A stretch of DNA of 64,000 nucleotides, from positions 124,001 to 188,000 of the forward strand of contig NZ_LXYE02000019.1 of NCBI RefSeq assembly GCF_001659685.2. Reading direction: 5' to 3'. Position 1 is the first letter of the stretch; each line of letters starts with the position of its first letter. Below the pieces are notes generated by a model. It ran no database searches. It worked only from the letters and a program-made list of their open reading frames with translations, and was not told the origin of the DNA. The position numbers and the translations under genes are program-made. Source of the DNA: Labilibacter marinus (GTDB lineage Bacteria > Bacteroidota > Bacteroidia > Bacteroidales > Marinilabiliaceae). Positions 26,615 to 36,156 of this stretch are shown here, piece by piece.

Positions 26615-27364
26615 TTATAATTTCTTCAATTCGTCCAATACATAATCCTTTTTCCTGCGAGAAACGGGAACCGAAGAATCATCCGTCATTTTTAAATAAC
26701 CGCCATCAGACTTAATAAAGGCACTAACCTGAGTCAAGTTAACCATATGCGTTTTATGTGTTCGAATAAATCCATAGCCTTGCAAAATCTCTTCAAAATC
26801 AATGAGTGGTTTTGATACCAAATGCTCTCTCCCGCAGCTTAAATAAACGCGTGTATAATTGGCTTCGCCTTTACATTGAATAATGTTTTTCACCTCCACG
26901 TAATCTATTTTATCCGAAAACGGAAGGGCTATCTTTTTGTTTTCCGCTTTAAGTTCCTTGTTTTGCATAAACTGATCTAAACGAAAATCCTCTTCCTCCT
27001 TATAATTCAAAAATCTATCTACGGCCTCTTTTAGCTTTATGGCATCAATGGGTTTTAGTATATAATCTAAAGCAGAAAACCGAATGGCCTGAATGGCATA
27101 TTGATCGTACGCCGTAACAAAAATGATTTGAAAATCGGGTCGCTTAAAAAACTCCAACACCTTAAAACCATTGCCTCCAGGCATTTCTATATCCAGAAAA
27201 ACTAGATCTGGACTGTGCTCTTTAATGGAATCCACCGCAGCAATAGCACAATCTGCCTCAGCCACCACATCCACCTCAGGACAATATTTCTTTAATACTC
27301 CGCGAAGATTCTCTCGTCCATTTATTTCATCGTCAACGATGATAGATTTTATCGTTTCCATCAT
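26615..27364 (-). CDS. LytTR-family response regulator
   Basis: A 249-residue protein with an N-terminal receiver domain (VDDE at 8-11, phosphorylated Asp in LVFLDIEMPGGNGF, then VTAYDQYAI) and a C-terminal LytTR DNA-binding domain (about 140-245; IIQCKGEANYTRVYL, THKTHMVNL). It is encoded 33 bp downstream of the large sensor kinase on the same strand and is its evident partner. LytTR proteins bind two direct repeats upstream of their targets. I chose the first ATG of an ATG-ATG pair. Confidence 0.92.
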   Translation of the reverse strand: MMETIKSIIVDDEINGRENLRGVLKKYCPEVDVVAEADCAIAAVDSIKEHSPDLVFLDIEMPGGNGFKVLEFFKRPDFQIIFVTAYDQYAIQAIRFSALDYILKPIDAIKLKEAVDRFLNYKEEEDFRLDQFMQNKELKAENKKIALPFSDKIDYVEVKNIIQCKGEANYTRVYLSCGREHLVSKPLIDFEEILQGYGFIRTHKTHMVNLTQVSAFIKSDGGYLKMTDDSSVPVSRRKKDYVLDELKKL

Positions 27365-27397
27365 ATTCTTTTTACAACTCACCCTGAAAGCAATGCT

Positions 27398-30376
27398 CTA
27401 CTCCTCTGAAAAACAAATCTGAACTTTTGTTCCGAGTGCTTTTCCATTATCATCTTTTAAATCCTCAATTTGCATATGGTAAGCGGTTCCATATTTATCG
27501 GCCAGTAAATCTAAACGTTCCTGACTAAATTTAATACCCTTGCCATTGGATGTTTTGGGTTTTTCCCGTTCAGTATTTCTGCCAACACCATTATCTGTTA
27601 ACGATACACAAATGATATCCTCTTGTTCTTTGTTAATTTTAATTGCTAGTTTGCGTTCTCCTTGTTTTGGCGCAAGACCATGCAGTATGGCATTTTCAAC
27701 TAAAGGTTGGAGGATTAACGGCGGTATAAATACGGAATAAGCATCCACAAGCTCATCCACATCCACAATAAAATCAATATCAAATCGCAGCTTTTCCAAG
27801 TCCACATAATTATGGATAATTTCTAATTCCGTTGCCAGGGAAATTTCTTCTTTCTCACTATTTTTTAATACACTCCTAATCAGCTCTGCAAATTTTGAAA
27901 GATACTGATGCGCCTCATCGTTTTGTTTTTTCTGCACCAGATTTTGGATAGAATTCAAACAGTTATACATAAAGTGCGGGTTCATCTGTGCACGAATGGC
28001 AGTAAGCTCTAGCTCTCGGACTTTGGTATTAATGGCGGCTTCACTAATTTTTCTCTTGGTACGACGACGGTATAGACCCCATGCAATAAAAACAACAACT
28101 AGAAGAAATACAATTATGCTTAATATGGCTTTTAGAATACGGATGGTATACTCAGGGTCTTCTATTTTTGCCTTTCCTTTTATGGAATCAAATAGTAAGT
28201 TAGGTTGCTTTACTAGTTTAGATATACCAGGTGCAAATATCTTAACAAGAGTTCCATTCTTGTCAATAATTTGGCTTTGAGGAGTCCCTTTATAAAGAAA
28301 GCTATTCCTTAATAAATATTCATCTCTATTACTTGCAATTAATTTTGTGCCATCTACCTTAAATTTTTTCACATATTCTCTTACGGAAGGATCATCTCCA
28401 TTAAGAAAAACATACAAAAATTCGATATTTTGGCCTCCGAATAAAGTCTTTAAGGTATCCCTATATTTTTCGGCAGATGGTTTAAAAAAATCAGATTCAA
28501 TATCGCAAAAAGATAAGTATACCGCTTTATCTCTAAAGTCGGATAACTTTATCTTGTTACCATCAATATCCTCCATTGAAAAGTTGTAGGCCAGTTTCCC
28601 TACTCTAGAATTTTGTGCATTTTCAAAGGCTTGTGTTAATATTATAGCATTTTTTGAATTAGGATATTCCTCCATAAAACGATTGTAAAGTTGAGTGTAG
28701 GTATTAACGCTTCTATGTTTAATGGCACCCGATACGATTTTGTATTTAAGGGTGTGTTGAGTCATTCCACTAAAGAACTTTGAACTGTAAGCATAGTTAG
28801 CTTGATGCCAAAAATCATATTTATTACCAACCCATGGATCTTGGACATTTCCTTTTCCAGAAGCTTTATACGTTTTCTTTACAAAATGAGAAAAGACGTA
28901 TTTCCATAGAAAACGATCATACCCTTCGAAAAAGGACATCAAATCATTATCAAGGTGGATCCATTCTTCAAATTCAAGATATTCTTCTGGAGCAGATTGC
29001 TTTCCACTCCCTTTTAAAGCAATAGAATTAAGGACTTCTTTTGATAGCTTAAAACCTATTAAACTACTAACTCCCGTTGTTATTATTTCATAATATTCAG
29101 CAAGATATACTTCAGGAGCTAATTGTGTTTTATACAGATTAAGAAATTCTATTCGCTTATCGATATACTCTTCCACTTTGCTTTTAAAACTCATATAAGA
29201 CATATCCATATATTGTTTGGTATTTTCATTTTGAGAAGTAAAAGGAAGCTTTTCTTTTTTATTAAGAAGAGCAGCATTAAAAAAGTAATTAACATGATTA
29301 CTACCAACTCCATTTGCTCTTATAGTTTTATTGAATTGGTTTAAGTCAGCCGTTATATATAAATCGTCACCTGGTAGTACATAAAAGTTGGCATCCCTCT
29401 TATGAGTGAACTTAACTTTTTGAATTTTATCGACCTGAAATTTTAACTCAAAAGTTCCATCCGGATTTATGTTGCTTATTACTTGCATTATATCTTTCGT
29501 AGCTGGATTATCACTAAACCATTCAACAACTACCTTTTCACCCATCTCAGGATTAAGTATTTTCCCCTTGATGGTCACATTAGGATTGACGAAGGTTGTA
29601 TCTTTCTCCAAGAAATTATGAACACATTTTGTTTGATGACTTTCTATTAAATTAGGAAGAAATACTTGTTTGTTTATTATATGCTTTTGACCGTTTAAAT
29701 CATAAGCATCCGTTTTCTCGATAATAATCCCTGTTAAAGGATCTATCGTATATTCAACCCTATTTATGGCCTGACCAGTTTGTTCCTTTTCTAAAAGTGT
29801 TATATAGTTCTTGTTAATTTCGGTAACTATAAGTTCATTTTCCTCGATGGTAATTTGCTCATTTACATGAAGGTTTTTAGGAGTTTCTAAAAGTGGAAAT
29901 TTCACTGCTTTTACAATATCAGATTGTATAGAAACCTTCATCTCTGGAAAAAGGGTAATCAAAGAATCCTTTATTTCAACATTTGAAATTATTCCTGCAA
30001 ATGACATATCAAACTTGATGGTATCTAACTCCGCTATGGTGTATTTATTCTTTTTGTATTTTCGTTTTGAGTTTTGACTTAATTCTGAATGGTTTGCTGA
30101 AGACGAAAACCATTTATTACTTTTTATACTCTTATGCCTTTGGTATGAAAAAATTGTACTATCAGAATATTGAACTTTATAGTGGTTATTATAAACATCT
30201 AATATTTTGTAGGTAGAATAGGAGGTATACAAACCTTCCGTTTGCTCAGTTTCATTTTCCCAATTTTCATAAGTACTAGTTTTAAACGTGTACACACCCC
30301 CCTTCTTCAGCCTCTGCTGGCTTTTTAATTGAGGAATTATAGAAAGTAGAATTAAAATTAGCAATACTCGATTCAT
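27398..30376 (-). CDS. LytS-type sensor kinase with a TlpA-like extracytoplasmic region
   Basis: 992 residues. Signal peptide 1-20. A long N-terminal extracytoplasmic region follows, with a beta-sandwich stretch at about 265-345 resembling the DUF4369 domains of TlpA proteins (NPDGTFELKFQV; YVLPGDDLYI). It leads into a helical region and a thioredoxin-like domain at about 595-735 (FSMEDIDGNKIKLSDFRDK; cis-Pro in GTPQSQIIDKNG). The CxxC site of thioredoxins is replaced by FCDIESDFF, so both catalytic Cys are lost. One transmembrane helix lies at about 750-773. The cytosolic part is a LytS-type histidine kinase: MNPHFMYNCLNS (phosphoacceptor His) and an HATPase domain (LVENAILHG; DNGVGRN). The neighbours encode two intact TlpA relatives with the same layout. 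I infer a sensor derived from a TlpA protein. Confidence 0.85.
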   Translation of the reverse strand: MNRVLLILILLSIIPQLKSQQRLKKGGVYTFKTSTYENWENETEQTEGLYTSYSTYKILDVYNNHYKVQYSDSTIFSYQRHKSIKSNKWFSSSANHSELSQNSKRKYKKNKYTIAELDTIKFDMSFAGIISNVEIKDSLITLFPEMKVSIQSDIVKAVKFPLLETPKNLHVNEQITIEENELIVTEINKNYITLLEKEQTGQAINRVEYTIDPLTGIIIEKTDAYDLNGQKHIINKQVFLPNLIESHQTKCVHNFLEKDTTFVNPNVTIKGKILNPEMGEKVVVEWFSDNPATKDIMQVISNINPDGTFELKFQVDKIQKVKFTHKRDANFYVLPGDDLYITADLNQFNKTIRANGVGSNHVNYFFNAALLNKKEKLPFTSQNENTKQYMDMSYMSFKSKVEEYIDKRIEFLNLYKTQLAPEVYLAEYYEIITTGVSSLIGFKLSKEVLNSIALKGSGKQSAPEEYLEFEEWIHLDNDLMSFFEGYDRFLWKYVFSHFVKKTYKASGKGNVQDPWVGNKYDFWHQANYAYSSKFFSGMTQHTLKYKIVSGAIKHRSVNTYTQLYNRFMEEYPNSKNAIILTQAFENAQNSRVGKLAYNFSMEDIDGNKIKLSDFRDKAVYLSFCDIESDFFKPSAEKYRDTLKTLFGGQNIEFLYVFLNGDDPSVREYVKKFKVDGTKLIASNRDEYLLRNSFLYKGTPQSQIIDKNGTLVKIFAPGISKLVKQPNLLFDSIKGKAKIEDPEYTIRILKAILSIIVFLLVVVFIAWGLYRRRTKRKISEAAINTKVRELELTAIRAQMNPHFMYNCLNSIQNLVQKKQNDEAHQYLSKFAELIRSVLKNSEKEEISLATELEIIHNYVDLEKLRFDIDFIVDVDELVDAYSVFIPPLILQPLVENAILHGLAPKQGERKLAIKINKEQEDIICVSLTDNGVGRNTEREKPKTSNGKGIKFSQERLDLLADKYGTAYHMQIEDLKDDNGKALGTKVQICFSEE

Positions 30377-30510
30377 AGCTTTGGATTTATCGTTTGAAGA
30401 TAATATTGTTTAACGAGTATGAAAATAAGGGCTTGCAATCATTATTTATTGCTTAAATGTATAAGTGGTGTAAGTGAGTTATTTTGCGGTAAAATTATAA
30501 TCCTTAAAAC

Positions 30511-30545
30511 AAAAAAAGGGATAGGTGCCGCAGACACACTATCCC
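30511..30545 (-). terminator. Terminator of the 728-residue TlpA gene
   Basis: GGGATAG pairs with CTATCCC over a 14-nt loop. The A-run on the left forms a U-run on the minus strand. The sensor gene downstream therefore probably has its own promoter in 30377-30510, though none was clear. Confidence 0.7.
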
Positions 30546-30568
30546 CAAACCTAAAAAAATCCACACAA

Positions 30569-32755
30569 TTATTTTTGGCTTAAATCCTCTTTGTCCGAAA
30601 CCAGTAGCTTTGCTATTTCTTTTTCGAACTGATACATATTAAAGTTATCATTCAGCACCTTACCATCTTTATCAATAACCACATAACGCGGAATGCCATT
30701 AAACTTAAATAACTGACGCAAATACAAGTAATCATTATTGCTTATGCGATATGTATTTATCAAATCTTGCTCCTTCACAAACTTATCATACTTGCTTAAG
30801 GGCGTACTTCTATCGTTGGTAATAAACACAAAGTCAACATCTGGATTGCTTGCATATTGCTTGCGCGTTTCTTTCATTCGTTTTATGCCACTTACACAAG
30901 GTCCACACGAAGTTGCCCAAAAGTCAACCACCAATACTTTACCTTTATGTGGCGCTATTATTTTATTGAATATATCCGCAGCCTTTCCTTGTGGTAAAGC
31001 GTATGCATTAGCATTGGCTCCATCATAAGTACGGCTATAAAGAGCATCTCCTGTAGAAACTAAATAATCATTATCAATATTTTGTTTTAATTCGCCCCAT
31101 AATGCTTGAGCATTGCTAGCATTTATCTGTTTAAACTTATACTTTAAGGTTCGTAAGGTAGCTATATCCAACACTAAATTATCTTCAGCACCATATTGCT
31201 CGGTCATTTCAATTTTAGCCAACTCCCACATTTTGTCAGAAACCTTATCGTAATGGGCAATCGCCATTGTATTCCATGTAGAAAAGCTATCGCTATACCT
31301 ATCTTTTAACACAGAAAAACTTATCTGCATGTCCTTTAAGTGCTCCATTTCTTCAGGAGTCTTATCTTTTTTTTCAGCTAATTCTAAGTAGGCTCTATCC
31401 TCTTTTGATAAAAGCACTTCATTTTTTAAGAGATACTCAAAAAATCCTAACTCCAAAGGATACTTTTTCGCGACTTCATTTCTATGCTTCATTACCAAGT
31501 TGGAATACTCAAAACGATTGATAAAAACTTTAAACTTATCGCTAATTATTAAGGATTGATCATTTAAAGGAACATTACCCATAAAGTCGTAAAACGAATC
31601 GGGCAAAGGCTCCTGTAGTTCTTTGTTTTCTTTATCTTTACGTGCCTCCATGCTTCTGCGCATCTCTATATCAAGCATTGCTTCGGCATGGGTTAATATA
31701 ATTTCGTTTCGTAAAATAGTATATGTTTTTTCCATATTTATATTCCACATTTTACCGTAATACTTCAGCTTAGCCATCTCCATATCCTTTTGCTGATTAT
31801 AAAGAGCTACTTTTTCTTCAAGGCTCATGTTCTTTTTCATGTAGTAATACTTATGAAAATGCTTGCCCTCAAACTCAAATCGCAACAATTGGTTGTTCAC
31901 CTTAGCCAACTTGCCTTTATATCCCGTGTCTGGAAAATGATAATCTTTATGCCTAAAGCGATCTGCATTTAAAAAGTCTTCCCAATTAAGTATCATACCT
32001 AAAGTTTGTCCTGGCTCTAAATAAAATGGGATTGATTTTCTATCAAATTGAATATTAGAATACAAAGGTGAAATTAAAGGTATTTCTACCTCAAAACGAC
32101 CATCTGGCTGAACCTCAACAACCATTGGGTAATCCTCTCTAGTTAAGTAATTACTTAAATATATAACCCCTGTTGTAAGTTTTGATTTTACCGAATAGCC
32201 TTTAATATACCCTACAATCCTGCCTTTATCTTCGGTAAAAAAGTTATCCGATTTAAAATCCTTAAGCGCTGCATTACTGCACTTGTCTACCTCTTTATTT
32301 AACCAAGTATTTATTTCCTCAGGAAGTAAAGAGTAATATGGTCGCAAGCCAGCTTTCTTTTCATCCAAGGAAATACCAAAGATATCCTCATCAAAATTAA
32401 ACTGCTTGGTTTTTTTAATTAACGGCGGAAATATTAGTACTACAGTGCTGTCTCCAGAAACAGGCATAGAGAGGCGTTCGCCAAACTCAGCTCCTTCAAC
32501 CGACTTTATGGTATATGTTTCCTTGTTTTCCTCATCAATAAGTTTCATCTCATCATTAATCACCACCCACCAATTAGGTAAGAATCTACTCTGAAGGTGA
32601 ACTCGTGTTTCTTCTTTTGATAATTCAATTTTAGATACGTTGTAAATACCCGACTTTTTAAACTCATAATAAGGGTTAACAATGGTTTTGTTTTTTTGTG
32701 CCAGCATACTTGCCGACATCAGCACAACAAGGGCTGTTAGAATTAGATTTTTCAT
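30569..32755 (-). CDS. Large TlpA-family protein with a long N-terminal extension (728 aa)
   Basis: Signal peptide 1-19. Residues about 20-260 are beta-rich. YLEPGQTLGMILNW near 250 and GYKGKLAKVNNQLL match a segment shared with the 890-residue neighbour. A long charged helical region at 300-570 follows. A C-terminal thioredoxin domain starts near 590, with the active site WATSCGPCVSG near 611-621 and the cis-Pro in GIPRYVVIDKDG. The CxxC is intact, so it should reduce or exchange disulphides in the periplasm. It lies upstream of the sensor kinase, 193 bp apart with a terminator between. Its role may be to act on, or be regulated with, the sensor. Confidence 0.82.
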   Translation of the reverse strand: MKNLILTALVVLMSASMLAQKNKTIVNPYYEFKKSGIYNVSKIELSKEETRVHLQSRFLPNWWVVINDEMKLIDEENKETYTIKSVEGAEFGERLSMPVSGDSTVVLIFPPLIKKTKQFNFDEDIFGISLDEKKAGLRPYYSLLPEEINTWLNKEVDKCSNAALKDFKSDNFFTEDKGRIVGYIKGYSVKSKLTTGVIYLSNYLTREDYPMVVEVQPDGRFEVEIPLISPLYSNIQFDRKSIPFYLEPGQTLGMILNWEDFLNADRFRHKDYHFPDTGYKGKLAKVNNQLLRFEFEGKHFHKYYYMKKNMSLEEKVALYNQQKDMEMAKLKYYGKMWNINMEKTYTILRNEIILTHAEAMLDIEMRRSMEARKDKENKELQEPLPDSFYDFMGNVPLNDQSLIISDKFKVFINRFEYSNLVMKHRNEVAKKYPLELGFFEYLLKNEVLLSKEDRAYLELAEKKDKTPEEMEHLKDMQISFSVLKDRYSDSFSTWNTMAIAHYDKVSDKMWELAKIEMTEQYGAEDNLVLDIATLRTLKYKFKQINASNAQALWGELKQNIDNDYLVSTGDALYSRTYDGANANAYALPQGKAADIFNKIIAPHKGKVLVVDFWATSCGPCVSGIKRMKETRKQYASNPDVDFVFITNDRSTPLSKYDKFVKEQDLINTYRISNNDYLYLRQLFKFNGIPRYVVIDKDGKVLNDNFNMYQFEKEIAKLLVSDKEDLSQK

Positions 32756-32819
32756 GGTTAAATAATTTGATTAAAAAATAATCAGGGAAAATGCTTTTAA
32801 ACAATTATTTCCTTCGCTC

Positions 32820-32872
32820 ACCTCTAAATCTCCTAAAGGAGCCTCGTGCGCAGATCCCTTTAGGGAATAAAA
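32820..32872. repeat. Two small palindromes in intergenic spacer, possible dispersed repeat
   Basis: CTCCTAAAGGAG and CCCTTTAGGG lie 27 bp apart within 184 bp between the TlpA gene and the small membrane protein gene. Similar short palindromic spacers are scattered in Bacteroidota genomes. No ORF is seen here. Confidence 0.3.
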
Positions 32873-32938
32873 GGGTGTGCAAAGGCAAATGAAAGGTGTT
32901 AGAAAACTATAAGCGATTTCCCTGTAGTTATGGTGATT

Positions 32939-33319
32939 TTAATTATTTTCCTCTTTATTTTTTGTCAGTATTTTAATAGAAGCTTTAAATCCAATACCCA
33001 TAAAAATAAGAATTAGTCCAAAACACAAGCAGCTCCAATCTTCAGAAGGCTCTCTAACAATAGCGGATAGCACTACCTGGAAAATATTACCTAATACAAA
33101 TCCAAACCCACTAAAATAAAAGAGCTTTTGTAAGATATTTACCAAATCTATGATTTGTGGGTCACTACTAATTTGTTCTTTGGAGAGAAACTTATCTCTT
33201 AAAAAATTGACAATAATTACGAAAACATATACCAAAATTACGGCAATAACTATTTTCATAAAGATGCTGGCGTAAAAAGCTAAATAGACGCTTTCTGGGT
33301 TAAAAGAATGGGTATTCAT
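32939..33319 (-). CDS. Small hypothetical membrane protein, possibly DUF2975-like
   Basis: 126 residues with about four hydrophobic helices (about 18-45, 60-82, 84-100 and 95-115). Conserved-looking features include LVNILQKLFYFSGFGFVLG and CLCFGLILIFMGIGFKA. The layout recalls the DUF2975 family of small membrane proteins, often regulated with a DNA-binding partner, but I am not sure. It sits between two TlpA genes on the same strand with intergenic gaps of about 165-185 bp. Function unknown. Confidence 0.55.
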   Translation of the reverse strand: MNTHSFNPESVYLAFYASIFMKIVIAVILVYVFVIIVNFLRDKFLSKEQISSDPQIIDLVNILQKLFYFSGFGFVLGNIFQVVLSAIVREPSEDWSCLCFGLILIFMGIGFKASIKILTKNKEENN

Positions 33320-33438
33320 GGTTTGTTAAATTATTTGTGAGTTAAAAATATATAGAATTAAATTATGCCAATAAGGGTTTCCGACAAACGGTTGATTTTA
33401 ACTCATCAACGGTTACAAGCTCTGTTTATTCGGGAAAA

Positions 33439-33473
33439 TGCTTGCCCAACGAAGGGGCCTCGTTGGACAAGCA
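33439..33473 (-). terminator. Hairpin after the 890-residue TlpA gene
   Basis: A 14-pair stem with one G-U on the minus strand (arms start TGCTTG and end CAAGCA) over a 7-nt loop. It is 11 bp beyond the stop at 33484. No good U-run follows, so it may stabilise the 3' end rather than terminate. Confidence 0.55.
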
Positions 33474-33483
33474 AGATGATGTA

Positions 33484-36156
33484 TTACAAATATTTATTGA
33501 TCAATTGTTTTATAGCCTGATTGTTATGCAAACGGAAGTTATTCTTGGCCACTTTTCCATTTTTATCTACCAATACGTAATGCGGAATACCAGCAACGTC
33601 AAACTGTTTACACAATGCGTCCCACTGCTCTTGGGTACATTTATAATGCTCTCCTTTTATTTCGGGTAACATATTCATGTATGCACCTTGAGGCGAAGAA
33701 GCTGCAGATAGATATACAAACACCACATCCTCATCGGCCATTTGTGCTTTTAAGGGAGCTATTTTTTTAATACCCGAGCGACAAGGGCTACACCATGTAG
33801 CCCAAAAATCTACATACACTACCTTACCTTTATATTTAGCCATAATGGCATCAAACAATTCGGTATTATCTTCAACTTCTGGCATCTCATTCACCGCAAC
33901 CGTTCCATTCTTCTTATTCTCTTCAATTTTAGCAATCACCTCTTGGTTAGTATCCTGAATATATTGCTGAACAAAAGGGTTAGAAATATGCTCAAGTCGA
34001 TAACCTAAGTCCTCTTCAGCTAACGGCTCGTATTCATTCACCACTTTACGCAAAATATCCTGACTAGTCATAATATCGGCAGCAAAGCCAGGCTCAACCC
34101 CAAAATTTTCTTTTAAACCATTATCTCTGAACTCAATTTTTGCATCAACATTAAGTCTTTTGTCTAGTTTTTTATATTTATCAGTAAAGGCTTTAATTTC
34201 ATCTGCATATTTTTTGCGGTGTTCTTGTGCATATTCAACATCTGGTCTGTTAAAAAGAGTCAGTTTATCATTACAAAAACCTTCATCCACGGCATCTAAT
34301 GTGGCACCTTCATCCTTAAGCAACTGAGGCAACTCCTCGGGTTTGTGTTTTCCCTTCGTTTTCCTATAAATATTACGTAGTTCTTTATGATATTTTCGAA
34401 CAAAACGAGTATTTGCATCACTCTCCATAAAAATATCCAGTTCTTTAAATACATCTTGATACGGAGCTAAAGAATCAATTAAAGCTTCTTCCTCGTTCGT
34501 TAACTCATATCCATATTTTTTAACTCCATTTGCAATATTGTATACATCTCCATATTTATAATGCAAGATTCCAAAAAACGAGAAATACTTAATTCTATTA
34601 ATAAACGAACTATAGCTACCACCAATCAAAGCCATTGAATCATTGACTAAAGCATTATCTATAAAGCTTACTTCCTCCTTGGTATACTTCGGAATATCTA
34701 CACCCAAATCTCTTTGCTTACGCGGAATATCATGCTTTTTACGATAGGCCTGATCATATTTCCATTTGTATTCGAACTTAGCAGAGTTATGCATATAAAT
34801 AAGGTCGTATCTTTTAATCTGCTCAGCCTTGGGGCTGATGTAATTCTTCTTTACAAAAGCATCCAATTTAGTTAAATCCTTCTCTAGGTAGAACTGATGA
34901 AAATCTACAAATTCCTTCACCGACATATTTAGCACTTTTTTAAGTACTTCCTGATAAGTACGGCTATTCAAGTTTCTCATCGCAAACAATTCATTATTCA
35001 CTCTACCTAGCTCACCTAAATATTTAGGATTACCCTTTCCTAGAATCTGAAAAACTTGTTGTCCTGGTTCTAAGTAAACAGATCCATTCCAAGCTTTAGA
35101 ACGCACGTAAACGATATTGCCATGCAGCATAGGTACTTCAACCGAAAATAAACCTCCATCTCCTACTTTGGCCGAATACTCATCCTGACTCCCTGTAAGA
35201 ATATTGTTTACATGAACCAATATTTCGAGCTCACCGTAACGTTTTTTGTATGCACTTATACAACCAGAATATATGGAAGAGCCCTTGTTAAATTTCATGC
35301 TATTTAAAGGAAAATCACGCTCTGCTATTCCCCAAAACACAACTTCTTTTTTTGAATCACAAAGAGTAGTCATTTCAGCTATTGATTCTCCAATCAATAA
35401 TTCACCATCTTTACCTCTGGGGTATTTGAAACTGGCTTTTGAAGATCTTGATGTGATATTTGAATTTTCTTCTTCTTCTTCCTCCCAATAAGTCTCTAAT
35501 GGATATAGATTAGTAATGGTATATTTGGCTTTTCCTTTTTTCCTATTCACTAATAGCTTAATACCTCCTTCATTATTCTTTAACTCTATAAAGCCATTTC
35601 CTTTTTTATCGATAGAAACATCTCCATAAGTCCAATGCTTACCTTTGTAAAAAGCCTCTTTATTGTACAAACATATGTTTAAATCGCCTCCTATTTTATT
35701 ATACCAAACGCCTTGCATATTATCCGGTATAAGCGAGGCTTCTTTAATTCCACTCAGTTGAATATCGTATATGTGCCAACCGCCAAACTCTTCACGTAGG
35801 TCTATGGCTTTTACGTCATCTCCCAACGCAGCAAAATGCAGTGTATACTTAAAGGTGCCGCTTTCAGGTATTTTAACCCACTTACCCAGGTTTAAGCCAT
35901 CACAACTTTGGATATATAACTTTTTATCCTCCTCATTTACATCGCATATATATGTCTTCTTAGGAATATTAAAGCTAGCTCCAGGTCTACCTTTATAACT
36001 AATGCTAACAGCAGTACTTGTTTCATTTAGCTGTATCTGATCGATACTTAAACCAGGCGCAGTAGAATAGTTTTGGCTGGGGTTTTTAATTACTTTTTGG
36101 GCGTGCATACCCATAAAGCACAATAGGGTTAATAAGGTCAACGAAAGTCGTTTCAT
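33484..36156 (-). CDS. Large TlpA-family protein with a long N-terminal extension (890 aa)
   Basis: Signal peptide 1-19 (ending MHAQ). The N-terminal 400 residues are beta-rich; a segment YLEPGQQVFQILG followed by LGELGRVNNELFA resembles that of the 728-residue neighbour. A helical middle (about 420-760) leads to the thioredoxin domain with WATWCSPCRSG near 780-790 and GIPHYVLVDKNG as cis-Pro loop. The CxxC is intact. The two proteins are paralogues with low similarity outside these landmarks. It is the most upstream gene of the five-gene block and has a predicted -7 box before it. It is expected in the periplasm or outer surface of the inner membrane. Confidence 0.82.
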   Translation of the reverse strand: MKRLSLTLLTLLCFMGMHAQKVIKNPSQNYSTAPGLSIDQIQLNETSTAVSISYKGRPGASFNIPKKTYICDVNEEDKKLYIQSCDGLNLGKWVKIPESGTFKYTLHFAALGDDVKAIDLREEFGGWHIYDIQLSGIKEASLIPDNMQGVWYNKIGGDLNICLYNKEAFYKGKHWTYGDVSIDKKGNGFIELKNNEGGIKLLVNRKKGKAKYTITNLYPLETYWEEEEEENSNITSRSSKASFKYPRGKDGELLIGESIAEMTTLCDSKKEVVFWGIAERDFPLNSMKFNKGSSIYSGCISAYKKRYGELEILVHVNNILTGSQDEYSAKVGDGGLFSVEVPMLHGNIVYVRSKAWNGSVYLEPGQQVFQILGKGNPKYLGELGRVNNELFAMRNLNSRTYQEVLKKVLNMSVKEFVDFHQFYLEKDLTKLDAFVKKNYISPKAEQIKRYDLIYMHNSAKFEYKWKYDQAYRKKHDIPRKQRDLGVDIPKYTKEEVSFIDNALVNDSMALIGGSYSSFINRIKYFSFFGILHYKYGDVYNIANGVKKYGYELTNEEEALIDSLAPYQDVFKELDIFMESDANTRFVRKYHKELRNIYRKTKGKHKPEELPQLLKDEGATLDAVDEGFCNDKLTLFNRPDVEYAQEHRKKYADEIKAFTDKYKKLDKRLNVDAKIEFRDNGLKENFGVEPGFAADIMTSQDILRKVVNEYEPLAEEDLGYRLEHISNPFVQQYIQDTNQEVIAKIEENKKNGTVAVNEMPEVEDNTELFDAIMAKYKGKVVYVDFWATWCSPCRSGIKKIAPLKAQMADEDVVFVYLSAASSPQGAYMNMLPEIKGEHYKCTQEQWDALCKQFDVAGIPHYVLVDKNGKVAKNNFRLHNNQAIKQLINKYL

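Follow-up and report, generated by a model that had tools for sequence, protein, structure and literature searches.

Recurrent LytS-type kinases with a TlpA-like sensor module in Labilibacter marinus and related bacteria

In the genome of Labilibacter marinus (Bacteroidales; Marinilabiliaceae), the gene for a LytS-type kinase lies next to genes for large TlpA proteins. This arrangement raises the question of whether a TlpA protein has become the sensor of a signaling system, and whether the neighboring TlpA proteins belong to that system. The window, meaning the whole stretch of DNA analyzed here, comprises 64,000 nucleotides (RefSeq assembly GCF_001659685.2, contig NZ_LXYE02000019.1, positions 124,001 to 188,000 of the forward strand). 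A preliminary description, made from the sequence alone, listed minus-strand reading frames of 992, 728, and 890 aa together with a LytTR regulator, all of which are present. The intact CxxC that it assigned to the 728- and 890-aa proteins was also found. A gene for a 126-aa membrane protein, absent from that description, is the fifth gene of the locus. LytS kinases carrying a TlpA module are referred to as TlpK, a label coined in this analysis.

Organization of the locus and of the window kinase

The locus contains five minus-strand genes and two hairpins:

26615..27382, minus strand: LytTR response regulator, 255 aa, 15 bp behind the kinase (Pfam: Response_reg, E 3.5e-22; LytTR, E 4.5e-14)
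27398..30376, minus strand: TlpK sensor kinase, 992 aa, with signal peptide, N-terminal beta domain, TlpA module, one transmembrane helix, and LytS-type kinase
30511..30546, minus strand: terminator-like hairpin (30518-30546, z -2.26) that separates TlpA728 from the kinase and carries a T7 tail
30569..32755, minus strand: TlpA728, a large TlpA of 728 aa, CxxC present (FWATSCGPC)
32939..33319, minus strand: small membrane protein, 126 aa, function unassigned, with a relative in genome G009 near TlpA728-like and TlpA890-like genes
33440..33474, minus strand: strong hairpin behind TlpA890 with a short T tail (-25.5 kcal/mol, z -6.44, 0 of 200 shuffles)
33484..36156, minus strand: TlpA890, a large TlpA of 890 aa, CxxC present (FWATWCSPC)

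Within the kinase, the following parts were distinguished:

29627..30319, minus strand: N-terminal beta domain, about residues 20-250, common to other TlpK kinases and not to the neighboring TlpAs
29321..29578, minus strand: DUF4369-like beta domain, residues 267-352, with an FYVLPGD segment at its end (Pfam, profile comparison, model)
28226..28603, minus strand: ResA/TlpA-type thioredoxin fold without CxxC, residues 592-717 (Pfam, alignment, model)
28067..28156, minus strand: single transmembrane helix, about residues 741-770 (one long helix 741-789 in the model, and a hydrophobic stretch)
27779..28009, minus strand: PF06580 His_kinase domain with NPHFMYN (Pfam, E 3e-24)

The inner half of the kinase resembles LytS/LytTR two-component systems, of which BtsS/BtsR is an example, in combining a PF06580 kinase bearing an NPHF box with an adjacent LytTR regulator. 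This regulator is intact by Pfam, with a receiver and a LytTR domain, and its best NCBIfam match is BtsR (134.8 bits, under the cut-off of 246). No Pfam match to HATPase_c was obtained in the window kinase at E≤1; stretches resembling the N-box and G-box motifs of that domain are visible by eye, and HATPase_c was found in all relatives scanned, in some under the cut-off. Classical LytS has a multi-transmembrane sensor. The window kinase, in contrast, crosses the membrane with a single helix, preceded by a signal peptide and a large TlpA module in the periplasm.

At the thioredoxin site, the alignment places FCDIESDFF, and therefore both catalytic cysteines are gone. Behind the signal peptide, the periplasmic part has two cysteines, 251 and 624. 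Cys 624 has no counterpart in the nearest relative, L022, whose cysteines lie at 24, 281, and 523 of its own numbering. Individual domain models gave sub-threshold matches to the window kinase, namely AhpC-TSA (E 1e-4) and DUF4369 (E 0.075, backed by profile comparison), and ResA was its sole NCBIfam match (40.5 bits, cut-off 170). An AlphaFold model of residues 1-790, built from 6 sequences, has a mean pLDDT of 65.4 and a pTM of 0.48 and is usable for much of the module. With Foldseek, its thioredoxin part matches ResA structures at TM-scores of 0.70-0.80 by target length for the named ResA chains listed. A sequence search of the PDB returned 56 matches, all of them confined to the thioredoxin part and its surroundings. 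The TlpA728 model is poor (mean pLDDT 44.6); TlpA728 and TlpA890 both have strong thioredoxin matches in Pfam, which start about 20 positions into the model, compared with position 3 in the kinase.

Profile comparison extends the likeness across the whole module. A profile of four kinase sensors matched a profile of 26 whole TlpAs of ~480 aa over 436 columns (E 4.8e-61), and with the thioredoxin fold matching ResA this bears out the earlier proposal that a TlpA protein became the sensor. By this sequence evidence, the outside part of the kinase is supported as a whole TlpA-type module consisting of a DUF4369-like domain, a helical part, and a ResA/TlpA thioredoxin fold that lacks CxxC. The TlpK module thus resembles Bacteroidota TlpA/ResA oxidoreductases (DUF4369, helical part, AhpC/TSA) in fold and order. 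The differences lie in the fusion to a kinase, an extra N-terminal domain, and the absence of CxxC in 24 of 26 members. The same layout had been claimed for all three window proteins. Their Y-x-x-P-G segment does correspond to the end of a DUF4369-like domain, but the N-terminal beta part differs: in a profile of four kinases, the first ~250 residues matched TlpA890 over 34 N-terminal columns only (probability 34%) and did not match TlpA728 (1.8%). A beta domain common to all three is ruled out by this comparison. The N-terminal domain of the window kinase matches that of two other TlpK sets (probabilities 88 and 95%) and does not match that of L025 (0.3%). DUF6263 was matched under the cut-off in 6 of 10 kinases scanned with Pfam, with no match in the window kinase.

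Recurrence and divergence of TlpK kinases

The kinase is a real, recurrent fusion. In total, 26 TlpK kinases were collected, mostly from the order of the window. In the window's family, at least 15 kinases in at least 11 of 71 genomes have a match spanning thioredoxin, transmembrane helix, and kinase; of these matches, 14 start no later than profile position 9, and that of G019 starts at 45. The search of 344 order genomes added a second family with G761, G592, and G686, whose matches start at profile positions 3, 6, and 60, respectively. In G761 and G686, the matches of another four loci start only at positions 79-151, and these loci were included for their kinase domain. At class level (395 genomes), the match starts at position 2 in G254, 3 in G471, and 115 in G149. 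By eye, G471 and G149 each contain DUF4369-like stretches and thioredoxin-like stretches without CxxC; both stand outside the 26, as do order and class matches beginning 55-110 positions into the profile, some of which could be members. In the phylum (296 genomes, E 1e-88), the genome of L. marinus alone appeared among the matches listed; it carries a second copy of the kinase. All these counts are lower bounds, few candidates having been scored per genome, and kinase-containing profiles would miss independent TlpA fusions to another kinase type. A scan of the 395 class genomes with the sensor only gave long frames, among the matches inspected, in the window's own genome and G333 only, the latter being a TlpA of 647 aa without kinase. 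Titles and abstract openings in open-licence literature contain no mention of a TlpA-kinase fusion.

All 22 aligned kinases have an unaltered NPHF box. CxxC occurs at the thioredoxin site in two of the 26, L021 and L023; L274 and L276 have a CxxC that lies away from this site. A thioredoxin match with i-E≤1e-3 was obtained in 13 of the 26 sensors, with weaker matches in 8 and none in 5. Sensors without a strong match were assigned through profile comparison (for example, with E 4.5e-19 across 386 columns) and kinase similarity. The module order is retained across 386-414 aligned columns between kinase groups. In a FastTree analysis of 152 LytS kinases, the kinase domains of the 26 TlpKs and three others form one starred group; since profiles covering the kinase domain were used to pick many members, this grouping is to some degree circular. 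The three outsiders are the long-branch entry L014 and two kinases of L026, one of which, a contig-edge fragment, is probably a TlpK.

Two side observations concern individual loci. In G003, a TlpK-like sensor with CxxC (L166, 8932-11877), about 50% identical to L021 and L023, is interrupted near its N-terminal part and ends before the transmembrane helix, with no kinase behind it and weak thioredoxin-like pieces downstream. Upstream of two TlpK genes lie genes of 376 aa (L280, 11950-13080) and 387 aa (L281, 4693-5856) with somewhat similar starts, possibly another recurring TlpK neighbor.

Sequence comparison further indicates that CxxC-less sensors often diverge fast. Among seven CxxC-less pairs at about 70-81% kinase identity, six, with kinase identities of about 70-79%, have sensor identities of only 25-40% (28, 40, 35, 34, 26, and 25%), five of them drawn from four related proteins and hence not independent. 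The seventh, L238/L239, is not fast (kinase 81%, sensor 74%), and the near-identical pair L241/L242 (100%/94%) was excluded from this range. Controls were pairs among 151 other LytS kinases, with median sensor identities of 54.6% at 70-75% kinase identity (133 pairs, minimum 42.5) and 63.1% at 75-85% (103 pairs, 1 below 30). At 60-70% kinase identity, CxxC-less pairs have sensor identities of 25-35%, and control medians are 43.5 (60-65%) and 49.4 (65-70%). The CxxC pair L021/L023 (kinase 66%, sensor 50%) sits at the control median. At 55-60%, TlpK sensor identities (23-31%) reach into the lower end of the control distribution (median 37.8, 10th percentile 27.7), and the difference there is therefore smaller.

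Relation to the neighboring TlpA proteins

The kinase had been described as part of a system related to the two large TlpAs, and thioredoxin phylogeny speaks against this. The window kinase forms a clade with L022, L021, L023, and the kinase-less G003 piece (100/96), near ordinary TlpAs, and not with TlpA728 and TlpA890, which fall apart from it in a group of their own (93/97). A second group of kinases stands separately. In AU tests, joining all 12 kinases into one clade was not rejected (p 0.104), placing the window kinase and L022 with the large TlpAs was weakly rejected (p 0.044), and placing the wider window group there was not (p 0.203). Over the pre-thioredoxin part alone, profile-profile comparison gave E 5.9e-27 between kinase sensors and ~480-aa TlpAs, E 6e-10 between the kinase and each of the TlpA890 and TlpA728 families, and E 1.5e-67 between the two large TlpAs. 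The large TlpAs are accordingly distant homologs of the kinase in the DUF4369/helical part and the thioredoxin, but have another N-terminal domain, an intact CxxC, and some homologs in glycan or sulfatase loci.

Motif and BLAST searches of 20 regions around TlpA890 and TlpA728 homologs (three of them under 15 kb) revealed no LytS kinase, and a conserved five-gene system was rejected on this ground. The exact gene order of the window does not recur; a looser combination of kinase, regulator, and some TlpA is present in a minority of loci. Three TlpA728 homologs adjoin glycoside hydrolase, sulfatase, or SusC/D genes, and 10 chosen neighbors in five of the 20 regions were mostly glycoside hydrolases, sulfatases, or SusC/D-type proteins. 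Found separately from these regions, L026 (2531-8320) has a LytS kinase (757 aa), a TlpA890 homolog, and a response regulator in a row, and is the sole case found of a TlpA890 homolog inside a two-component locus. On one strand of contig 10 of G009 (L349, 2450-19901) lie a TlpA728-like gene, here truncated, a gene related to that of the 126-aa protein (41%), and one resembling TlpA890. This is the window's trio spread out within 18 kb, with no LytS kinase detected between. Two further TlpA890 homologs (L152, 6746-10612; L150, 8889-12674) are about 1260-1290 aa long, with some 430 extra N-terminal residues.

Seen from the kinase side, 6 of 26 TlpK kinases have a same-strand CxxC TlpA no more than 5 kb away, compared with 1 of 39 LytS kinases from their own genomes (p 0.014) and 0 of 75 from other lineages; several loci stem from one genome and are not independent, and some flanks are short. 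Leaving the window out gives 5 of 25 against 1 of 39 (p 0.030). With full flanks only, the counts are 4 of 20, 0 of 31, and 0 of 41, respectively, and a 2-kb limit with full flanks gives 4 of 20 against 1 of 34 (p 0.057). Loosening the match threshold yields such a neighbor for 1 of 79 kinases of other lineages as well. A rule that CxxC-less kinases always adjoin a CxxC TlpA is weakened, since 20 of the 26 loci show none. The TlpAs neighboring TlpK kinases occupy no fewer than three separate positions in the thioredoxin tree.

DNA signals were compared as well. Of 200 shuffles, 3 equal or surpass the folding of the hairpin that separates TlpA728 from the kinase, and this hairpin is absent from the list of a simple pattern scan. 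In the other TlpA-bearing TlpK loci checked, no comparable hairpin separates TlpA from kinase (L169) or regulator from TlpA (L277, L279, and L024); L026 was left out. A scan for sigma-70-type promoters performed like its shuffled controls, with 39 found and 39.1 expected. Comparison of the intergenic regions for common DNA motifs gave one short match between two of them and otherwise a few single matches.

Candidate roles of the module

Beside the observed architecture, loss of CxxC, recurrence, kinase-domain clustering, and fast sensor divergence in several pairs stands the question of what the module does. The dead TlpA module probably serves as a binding receptor in a LytS/LytTR kinase. A TlpA module would have been transplanted, behind an extra beta domain, as the outside part of a LytS/LytTR-type sensor. 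Without the catalytic cysteines, it could presumably exchange no disulfides and would work by binding. A putative ligand or partner would dock on the DUF4369/helical/thioredoxin scaffold and shift the single transmembrane helix, upon which the kinase would phosphorylate the LytTR regulator and transcription of its targets would change. In a few lineages, targets or partners probably include a neighboring CxxC TlpA. In the window, TlpA728 and TlpA890 are most likely independent genes and bystanders.

An alternative, unlikely though worth weighing, is that the inactive thioredoxin module binds a CxxC TlpA (TlpA728, TlpA890, or another) and senses its redox or folding state. The enrichment of such TlpAs near TlpK kinases, the lack of a strong hairpin in four other loci, and the lack of a CxxC TlpA beside the CxxC kinases L021 and L023 argue for it. 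The many loci without such a TlpA, the weaker counts under stricter and looser settings, the scattered tree positions of the neighbors, the non-independence of several loci, and the terminator-like hairpin of the window argue against. Its likelihood overlaps with that of the receptor reading, because the latter allows a partner TlpA in some lineages. That the kinase arose from the neighboring large TlpAs, with the genes forming one system, is barely credible: adjacency, distant common ancestry, the unrejected placement of the wider window group, and the arrangement in L026 point that way, against the much closer ordinary TlpAs, the different N-terminal domain, the thioredoxin tree, the hairpin, and the kinase-free homolog regions.

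Two further readings concern the module itself. It could be a decayed spacer under relaxed constraint, with the N-terminal beta domain alone sensing, and the fast divergence could reflect such relaxation instead of receptor diversification. The thioredoxin fold is, moreover, not clearly recognizable by sequence in half of the sensors. The module order kept between kinase groups speaks against decay, which we consider rather improbable. Direct redox sensing, in which the module responds to thiols through Cys 251 and 624, or through CxxC in L021 and L023, appears highly improbable for the family. The intact CxxC of these two kinases favors it, and redox chemistry is possible in some members because they keep it; the site lacks CxxC in all other members, and Cys 624 is not matched in L022. 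For the binding receptor, a broader scenario may be put forward tentatively, as a possibility somewhat short of even. TlpK kinases would be pseudo-oxidoreductase receptors, in which a LytS kinase captured a complete periplasmic TlpA, most lineages lost catalysis and then diversified fast as receptors of changing ligands or partners, and a few members stayed in the ancestral, redox-active state.

If true, a bacterial kinase would have acquired its sensor from an enzyme fold. CxxC-bearing and dead forms survive in related genomes, and the step from catalyst to receptor would therefore be directly testable. The same would offer a possible function for part of the TlpA-like proteins of Bacteroidota.
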